Below are positions 17,227 through 22,563 of a DNA stretch of 42,743 nt, piece after piece. Location: positions 1-42,743 of the forward strand of contig VAXG01000040.1 in NCBI GenBank assembly GCA_005883355.1, given 5' to 3'. Source of the stretch: Actinomycetota bacterium. GTDB taxonomy: Bacteria > Actinomycetota > Thermoleophilia > Gaiellales > Gaiellaceae. The notes beneath the pieces are model-generated. The model ran no database searches. It had not been told where the DNA came from and worked only from the letters and a program-made list of their open reading frames with translations. The stretch's first letter is position 1. Every line of letters begins with the position of its first letter. The position numbers and the translations under genes were made by a program.

Positions 17227-17550
17227 ATGACAACTGCAGTGACGGAACAGAGCTTCGAAGAGGAGGTCCTCCAGAGCGACAAGCCGGTGATCGTCGACTT
17301 CTGGGCGGAATGGTGCGGGCCGTGCCACGCGGTGGCACCGGTACTCGACAAGATCGTGGCGGAGCGCGACGGAGACCTCAAGCTCGTCAAGGTGAACATC
17401 GACGAGCAGCCTGCGCTCTCCCAGCGCTTCGGCGTCCAGTCGATCCCGACCATGATCCTCTTCAAGAACGGCGAGCCTGCCGCGGCGGCGATCGGCGCAC
17501 AGCCGAAAACTGCTTTGGAGCGTGCTCTTGGGCTTGCCGAGTCCGACTAG
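17227..17550 (+). CDS. trxA: thioredoxin
   Basis: 107-aa canonical thioredoxin. The redox site is WCGPC (C30 and C33) after VIVDFWAE, the cis-proline is in SIPTMILF (about 72-79), and the buried Asp at 24 is present. It reduces protein disulfides with electrons from thioredoxin reductase, which is not in the window. ATG 17227 is preceded by AGAAAGGA at good spacing, one of the few clear Shine-Dalgarno sites here. It is divergent from ileS. Its stop codon abuts the stop of the convergent DUF2231-like gene with no gap. Confidence 0.96.
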   Translation: MTTAVTEQSFEEEVLQSDKPVIVDFWAEWCGPCHAVAPVLDKIVAERDGDLKLVKVNIDEQPALSQRFGVQSIPTMILFKNGEPAAAAIGAQPKTALERALGLAESD

Positions 17551-20868: not shown

Positions 20869-22092
20869 ATGGAGCAGAACGGAAAGCAGATCTATCCACC
20901 GTCGATCACTGGGAAGGGCGCAGGGTTCGGGTCCGGCGTGAGTGTCCTGGAGCACACGTTTGGCCAGAGCGATCCGTACACGCTGGGCGTCGAGGAGGAG
21001 TACATGCTGCTCGACGGCGAGACGTTCGACCTCGTGCAGCACATCGACACCGTGCTCGCCGCGGTCGCGGGGCACGAGCTCGAGCCGCGCATCAATCCGG
21101 AGCTGATGCAGTCCGTGCTCGAGATCGCCACGCCGGTCTGCCACACGCCCGCCGAGGTGGCGGAACAGCTGCGCCACATCCGCGCCTACGTCTGTGGCAT
21201 CGCTCGCGAACAGGGAATGCGGGTCGGGTCGGCTGGAACGCATCCGTTCAGCCTCTTCGAACGGCAGCGCATCACCGCGCGCGACCGATATCGCGCACTC
21301 GTCGACCAGATGCAATACGTCGCCCGGCGCGAGCTCATCTTCGGGATGCACATTCACGTGGCCGTCGACGATGCCGACAAGGCCATCCAGGTCGTCAACG
21401 GGCTCCTCCCGCACATCGGACCGCTGCTCGCGCTATCTGCAAGCTCACCGTTCTGGCGCGGCGAGCCGACGGGGCTGCGGTCGAGCCGCCAGATGGTGTT
21501 CGCCGCGTTCCCCCGCTCCGGGCCTCCCCCTCGCTTCGAGAGCTATGCGGATTACGCGGAGGTCGTCGGACAGCTCGAGAAGACCGGCTGCATCGCGGAC
21601 TACACACACATCTGGTGGGACATCCGCCTGCATCCGCGGCTCGGAACGATCGAAGTCCGCATCTGCGACGCCGTGACGCGCCTCGAGCACGTCGTCGCCA
21701 TCGTGGCGTATTGCCAGGCGCTCGTGAAGCTCTTCTCCGAGCGCTACGACCGCGGCGAGCAGATCCCGTCCTACCACCGCATCCTCACGACCGAGAACAA
21801 GTGGCTGGCGGGACGCTACGGCCTGGAGGCGCCCCTGATGGATCTCGCCACGGGACGCCGCAACCGTGTCGCGGTCGCGCAGTTGATCCGCCGGACGGTG
21901 AAGGAGATCGAACCGCACGCGCGCGAGCTCGGCTCCGACCGTGAGCTCGCTGGCATCGAGGAGATTCTCCGCAACGGCAACGGCGCCGACCGGCAGCTCC
22001 GAGTGTTCAACGCGAATCGCGACATCGTCGAAGTGGTGAGCGAGATCGCGGACACGACGGAGGTGGCCGCCTTGCCACAGCTTGCGACCTAG
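20869..22092 (+). CDS. GCS2-type carboxylate-amine ligase (glutamate-cysteine ligase family)
   Basis: 407-aa protein of the YbdK/EgtA-like glutamate-cysteine ligase family 2. The hallmark TLGVEEEYMLLD (about 38-49) carries the metal- and ATP-binding glutamates. INPELMQSVLEIATPVC (about 75-91), GTHPFS, GMHIHVAVDD (about 160-169) and WWDIRLHPRLGTIEVRICDAV (about 245-265) complete the active site. Members join glutamate to cysteine or act as weak gamma-glutamyl ligases; the exact product is not predictable. A leader of about 35 residues precedes the domain, so the start could be later. It lies between ridA and the Sec-peroxiredoxin with gaps of 9 and 12 bases, so one transcript is likely. Confidence 0.9.
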   Translation: MEQNGKQIYPPSITGKGAGFGSGVSVLEHTFGQSDPYTLGVEEEYMLLDGETFDLVQHIDTVLAAVAGHELEPRINPELMQSVLEIATPVCHTPAEVAEQLRHIRAYVCGIAREQGMRVGSAGTHPFSLFERQRITARDRYRALVDQMQYVARRELIFGMHIHVAVDDADKAIQVVNGLLPHIGPLLALSASSPFWRGEPTGLRSSRQMVFAAFPRSGPPPRFESYADYAEVVGQLEKTGCIADYTHIWWDIRLHPRLGTIEVRICDAVTRLEHVVAIVAYCQALVKLFSERYDRGEQIPSYHRILTTENKWLAGRYGLEAPLMDLATGRRNRVAVAQLIRRTVKEIEPHARELGSDRELAGIEEILRNGNGADRQLRVFNANRDIVEVVSEIADTTEVAALPQLAT

Positions 22093-22104: not shown

Positions 22105-22563
22105 GTGCTCCGGGTAGGCGACAAGGTCATCGCTGCATCGGTCTGGACTGCTCCCCACGAGCGGCGGACGCTCGACGAGCTGCTCGTCGAGGGGGCGGCG
22201 CTCTTTTTCTTCTACCTCTTCGACTGGTCCGCGACCTGAACGCACGAGATGGAGCTCCTGCGTGACAGGAGCCCGGAGTTCCTCAGGGCGGGGGTCCGCC
22301 CATTCGGCATCTCCGGCGATTCCGAGTGGACGCACATCGCGTGGGCCCAGGCGCTCGACCTGAACTTTCCGCTCCTCTCCGACTGGAACAAGGAGGCGAT
22401 GCAGGCGTTCGGCGTCGAAGGGGACTTCCGGGGGCACCGTGGCGTCGCGGATCGAAGCGCGTTCCTCGTCGCGGAGGACGGTACGGTCCGCGGCGCATGG
22501 CGCTACGACACGGCCGAGGTGCCGGACTTCGACGAGCTGCTTCGCGCCGCGCAGGCTTTGTAG
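22105..22563 (+). CDS. peroxiredoxin-like selenoprotein (in-frame TGA = Sec45)
   Basis: From GTG 22105 the frame runs 44 codons to TGA 22237-22239, then stays open to TAG 22561-22563. Read through, it is a 152-aa AhpC/TSA-type redoxin. VGDKV (4-8) precedes LFFFYLFDWSAT-U-THEM (33-49). Then come FGISGDSEWTHIAWA, FPLLSDWNKEAMQAFGV and AFLVAEDGTVRGAWRY, all expected peroxiredoxin elements in order. The TGA falls exactly at the peroxidatic Cys of the (T/S)xxC motif (S42-A-T-U45). The product has no cysteine, so it would be a 1-Sec enzyme without a resolving thiol. A SECIS-like hairpin follows. It likely reduces peroxides using a thiol partner. The alternative is a nonsense pseudogene. A tool that treats TGA as stop would report only a fragment from ATG 22249. 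Confidence 0.8.
22237..22272 (+). promoter_or_regulatory. UGA codon and SECIS-like hairpin
   Basis: After TGA (22237-22239), GCTCCTG (22254-22260) pairs perfectly with CAGGAGC (22266-22272) around the loop CGTGA (22261-22265). The loop starts 21 nt after the UGA, and its second base is G. The known bacterial SECIS consensus asks for a short stem, a 3-14 nt loop with G in the first two positions and a loop 16-37 nt from the UGA. All are met. Confidence 0.7.

Follow-up and report, generated by a model that had tools for sequence, protein, structure and literature searches.

A cysteine-free peroxiredoxin gene with a conserved in-frame UGA and a putative downstream bSECIS element in Thermoleophilia

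The window, a stretch of 42,743 nucleotides from an actinobacterial MAG, carries a peroxiredoxin gene that very probably (at roughly 0.96, judged from sequence comparison) encodes a 1-Sec peroxiredoxin, in which the UGA at codon 45 would be decoded as selenocysteine (Sec) by means of a downstream bacterial SECIS (bSECIS) element, SelB and tRNA-Sec. This reading is the one put forward in the original prediction, and it is supported by the conservation of the TGA among homologues, by the codon constraint within the hairpin and by the presence of selA, selB and selD in the same genome. The main features of the locus are:

22105..22563, + strand: predicted coding sequence of the Sec peroxiredoxin (GTG start, in-frame TGA, TAG stop at 22561-22563), 152 aa, with Sec as residue 45
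22237..22239, + strand: putative Sec-UGA codon at the peroxidatic position, in a SATU motif (SxxU); TGA in 65/65 Sec forms, TGC in Cys forms
22254..22272, + strand: putative bSECIS hairpin, stem GCTCCTG (22254-22260)/CAGGAGC (22266-22272) and loop CGTGA (22261-22265), based on folding, codon constraint and a covariance model
20869..22092, + strand: gene for a YbdK/GCS2-family carboxylate-amine ligase of 407 aa (NF010039, TIGR02050), directly upstream

The TGA is the lone interruption of the frame. The read-through product matches PF00578 (AhpC-TSA) over residues 4-129 with 78.6 bits (cut-off 26) and contains no cysteine at all. A single TGA at the position of the peroxidatic Cys in an otherwise open redoxin frame, and a protein devoid of cysteine, had both been proposed, and the frame, the Pfam match and the translation bear them out. 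The sequence around the TGA is FDWSATUTHEM, where S42-A43-T44-U45 places a Ser at -3 of the UGA, as the T/SxxU motif demands. Arg117, corresponding to the catalytic Arg of the peroxiredoxin pocket, aligns with the Arg of 2cx3 and is kept in 63 of 65 Sec forms. These Sec forms are non-identical homologues pooled from 61 related genomes and a scan of species genomes, and they are conserved over the entire length of the gene. The AlphaFold model of the protein has a pLDDT of 94.7, and its best fold neighbours in the PDB are all peroxiredoxins.

The clade is of the 1-Sec, AhpE/archaeal-BCP-like type. The best PDB profile matches (6.8e-28) are the BCP/PrxQ-like proteins 2cx3/4gqc of Aeropyrum pernix, and Bcp4 of S. 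solfataricus (3hjp) reaches a TM of 0.92 to the window protein; these archaeal proteins, by contrast, use Cys as the catalyst. AhpE of Mycobacterium tuberculosis (1xxu, 4x0x) is similar in size and fold (TM 0.89, 30% identity) and alike in its 1-Cys-type chemistry, but it has Cys and so needs no SECIS. Sec peroxiredoxins (PF00578/COG1225, T/SxxU) are an established bacterial family (PMC9312934, PMC13188914), of which 91 were counted in 2016 (PMC5029168). The window protein resembles the Sec peroxiredoxin of Eubacterium acidaminophilum (Sohling et al., 2001, as cited in PMC9312934 and PMC13188914) in the AhpC-TSA fold, the predicted Sec at the peroxidatic position and the UGA with a downstream bSECIS. 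It differs from E. acidaminophilum-type PrxU in the lack of Cys, in the Ser that stands for Thr at -3 and the Leu that stands for Pro at -7, and in belonging to a clade from Thermoleophilia MAGs. The score against the NCBIfam PrxU model NF040737 is 31.8 bits, far under the cut-off of 270. With Leu38 replacing Pro and Ser42 replacing Thr, the protein departs from the PxxxTxxU motif (PMC13188914) and agrees with the looser T/SxxU/C rule of PMC1794560. Most clade members are without any Cys, and the Pro of PxxxTxxU is retained in the divergent members L123 (Cys) and L130 (Sec).

The hairpin downstream of the UGA has the 7-bp stem, the CGTGA loop, the spacing of 21 nt from UGA to loop and the G as second loop base (followed by U) that were originally described as conforming to SECIS rules. 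As quoted in PMC13188914, the bacterial SECIS model comprises a loop of 3-9 nt, a stem of 4-16 bp, a G within the first two loop bases, a distance of 16-37 nt from the UGA and an MFE of at most -7.5 kcal/mol; the window hairpin lies inside all these limits (5-nt loop, 7 bp, 21 nt, -15.1 kcal/mol). This energy is that of the 26-nt hairpin RNA alone, for which z = -4.1 and none of 200 shuffles is equally stable. Within a 70-nt context the minimum-energy fold changes and is unexceptional (z = -0.8), which is why the proof of a SECIS is taken from comparative evidence. The loop is CGUGA in 63 of the 65 Sec forms and CGGGA in the other two, fitting the published G[G|U] rule. The outermost stem pair switches from G-C to C-G in five sequences; the inner pairs are nearly invariant, so that covariation contributes little beyond the outermost pair. 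A covariance search, proposed earlier as a check, recovers the window copy at E = 5e-15, a match by construction as the model derives from the same family. Rfam yielded no family over the peroxiredoxin locus in the window.

The codons under the hairpin are strongly constrained. LLRDR is spelled CTC CTG CGT GAC AGG, and these codons recur in 63, 65, 63, 65 and 64 of the 65 Sec forms, respectively. Across all codon columns of the gene, synonymous variation is most depleted at R55 (AGG, 64/65), R53 (CGT, 63/65), S56 (AGC, 36/37) and L52 (CTG, 65/65), and all four of these columns are located inside the hairpin. For comparison, Arg117 is encoded by CGC (24), CGG (18) and others.

Cys homologues serve as a natural control. 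Four close homologues have TGC in place of TGA. Three of them spell LLRDR as CTG CTG CGG GAC CGG, CTC CTC CGG GAC AGG and CTC CTC CGC GAC CGG, and in the fourth the first Leu is gone. The mean fold of the hairpin region is -4.6 kcal/mol in the Cys homologues versus -11.3 kcal/mol in the Sec forms, and the hairpin is lost or weakened where Cys takes the place of Sec. The tree places L035, which has Cys, as sister to a Sec form within a Sec clade (support 99/85, 99/96), which points to a Sec-to-Cys change there, accompanied by decay of the hairpin.

The window's own genome (G000) is a MAG that is 95% complete. Of the genes for Sec insertion that the original prediction sought there, selA (516 bits) and selB (309 bits) adjoin on contig C27 and selD is present with 343 bits, but an intact tRNA-Sec was not found in the assembly. 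SelD has a Cys at its active site, a position assigned by eye. Rfam tRNA-Sec matches of about 51 bits in this genome proved to be tRNA-Ser and tRNA-Leu. Among congeners, tRNA-Sec was found in four (G006-G009); ARAGORN reports a tRNA-SeC (UCA) in G007, G008, G009 and G010, and Infernal a strong match in G006. In G010 a single contig carries sequence like that of C88, the tRNA-Sec and then sequence like that of C27 with selB and selA.

These data bear on the alternative that the gene is a true Sec gene that has died in G000 through loss of tRNA-Sec. In its favour, a 3′ half of tRNA-Sec, in decayed form, occupies C88:977-1028, and the next 6 kb or so find no match in G009. Nevertheless, C27 and C88 both terminate at the junction that corresponds to the tRNA-Sec of G010, and this synteny leads us to expect an intact copy in the gap between them. 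Contigs of G006, G009, G014 and G023 likewise end no more than about 110 nt from tRNA-Sec, and the site is therefore one at which assemblies break. Together with the presence of selA, selB and selD, these observations make the loss of tRNA-Sec unlikely. The roughly 6.4 kb beyond the fragment on C88 (L179) do not match the corresponding syntenic stretch in G009, and the fragment resembles the distal attachment site of an old integrative element targeting tRNA-Sec. Near the sel locus, a DNA-glycosylase-like gene (G000:C27:349-960, L057) is inverted relative to its neighbours as compared with G006 and G007.

Across the 61 related genomes, a homologue with exactly one TGA is present in 34, at the identical codon in all that were read out. 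Nine of these 34 genomes show no selA, selB or tRNA-Sec, where about five would be expected to be without selA from incompleteness. In five of the nine, the formate dehydrogenase (FDH) gene also contains a TGA, which suggests assembly gaps as the cause of the missing machinery. Over the 61 genomes, the co-occurrence of the TGA gene with sel genes is not significant (Fisher p = 0.11), partly on account of MAG incompleteness and partly because the machinery is needed by other selenoproteins too.

A second candidate selenoprotein gene in some of these genomes is FDH. Several congeners encode an FDH with a TGA in the sequence ENQARIUHSSTVPSLGTSFGRGG, including G007:C13 (L178) and G009:C48 (L177). 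In G009 it is followed by a hairpin, GGUCCCC-AGUCU-GGGGACC, whose loop is placed 18 nt after the TGA and shares the xGU pattern with the peroxiredoxin loop. In G000, a search with the Sec-FDH protein found nothing, an empty result of little weight, and an FDH family search gave no TGA match. The covariance-model search of G000 likewise returned no second convincing SECIS copy. The peroxiredoxin is thus the sole selenoprotein found there by the SECIS-model and FDH searches. Two further matches to the SECIS model were set aside as weak and chance-like: one in G000:C15 (21 bits, E = 0.026) and one in G019:C33 (30 bits), which is situated inside another frame.

Beyond the related genomes, 74 loci were recovered by scanning 84,980 species genomes, and almost all of them come from Thermoleophilia/Gaiellales or unclassified actinobacterial MAGs. 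The loci L098 and L099, labelled Acidobacteriota and Burkholderiales, have genes nested in the Thermoleophilia clade of the tree, and their records are probably misbinned or mislabelled MAGs. The 65 non-identical homologues with TGA at one column exclude chance. The dN/dS ratio is 0.12-0.55 before the TGA and 0.14-0.40 after it, below 1 in every pair tested, indicating purifying selection on both sides.

To standard tools the gene looks truncated, as had been foreseen: the standard-code ORF 22249-22563 (104 aa) starts beyond the TGA, and a gene finder could call it. A restart of translation at the ATG at 22249, with the upstream part serving as a leader or being dead, is nonetheless very improbable. 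This ATG is present in only 35 of the 65 Sec forms (most of the rest have CTC or CTG), the upstream part is under purifying selection and the 104-aa product would have no active site. Still less credible is a pseudogene or sequencing error, i.e., an otherwise normal Cys peroxiredoxin interrupted by a nonsense mutation. The in-frame stop does truncate the protein when read alone, but the TGA occupies a single codon in 65 non-identical homologues from independent assemblies, with the frame conserved and dN/dS at about 0.1-0.55 on both sides and with the hairpin codons frozen. Random stops and frameshifts in close relatives, which had been named as evidence against a selenoprotein, do not describe the alignment, in which the codon either stays TGA at the exact position or is TGC (Cys). 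A genetic code in which UGA specifies an ordinary amino acid (NCBI code 4 or 25, for example) would open the frame, but its probability is negligible, since TGA serves as the stop codon in 19 of 36 long ORFs on the three G000 contigs checked and is therefore an ordinary stop of the standard code.

For the 1-Sec peroxiredoxin, we infer Sec insertion, peroxidase activity and the identity of the reductant as follows. The hairpin, with its CGUGA loop 21 nt past the UGA, would act as the bacterial SECIS element, and SelB and tRNA-Sec would decode the UGA at codon 45. By homology, Sec45, positioned by Ser42 and the conserved Arg117 in a typical peroxiredoxin pocket, would attack the peroxide as a selenolate and become a selenenic acid. 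The oxidized Sec45 would then be reduced by an outside thiol or redoxin, which is required because the protein has no resolving Cys.

A literature search for selenocysteine together with Thermoleophilia or Gaiellales found nothing relevant, and the Sec peroxiredoxins of these uncultured soil actinobacteria make up a large new clade that is apparently undescribed. Dozens of these bacteria share a gene that ordinary annotation would shorten. Together with the natural Cys homologues and their other codons, the 65 Sec forms also allow SECIS constraint and the change from Sec to Cys to be tested cleanly.

The upstream ligase scores above the cut-off of both family models, by 400 bits for NF010039 and by 318 bits for TIGR02050. 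In 27 of 72 database loci, a YbdK-family ligase gene precedes the peroxiredoxin gene by 0-225 nt on the same strand, in some cases overlapping its start; in seven more it lies within 3 kb. The ligase, a conserved neighbour, possibly supplies a thiol reductant, perhaps a gamma-glutamyl thiol, to the peroxiredoxin. In ten genomes that carry the gene together with some or all of the Sec machinery, no Sec-FDH was detected, which raises the testable question of what maintains the Sec trait in them. It is conceivable, though rather doubtful, that part of the lineage, including the window's species, keeps the whole Sec machinery for this small 1-Sec peroxidase alone, and that the enzyme is reduced via a gamma-glutamyl thiol made by the neighbouring YbdK-family ligase. 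The sole-selenoprotein part of this idea is based on the Cys form of SelD and on the searches that found no Sec-FDH; if true, the idea would amount to a previously undescribed selenium- and YbdK-dependent peroxidase system. The window also encodes an ordinary thioredoxin (WCGPC) at 17227-17550, a conceivable reductant partner.
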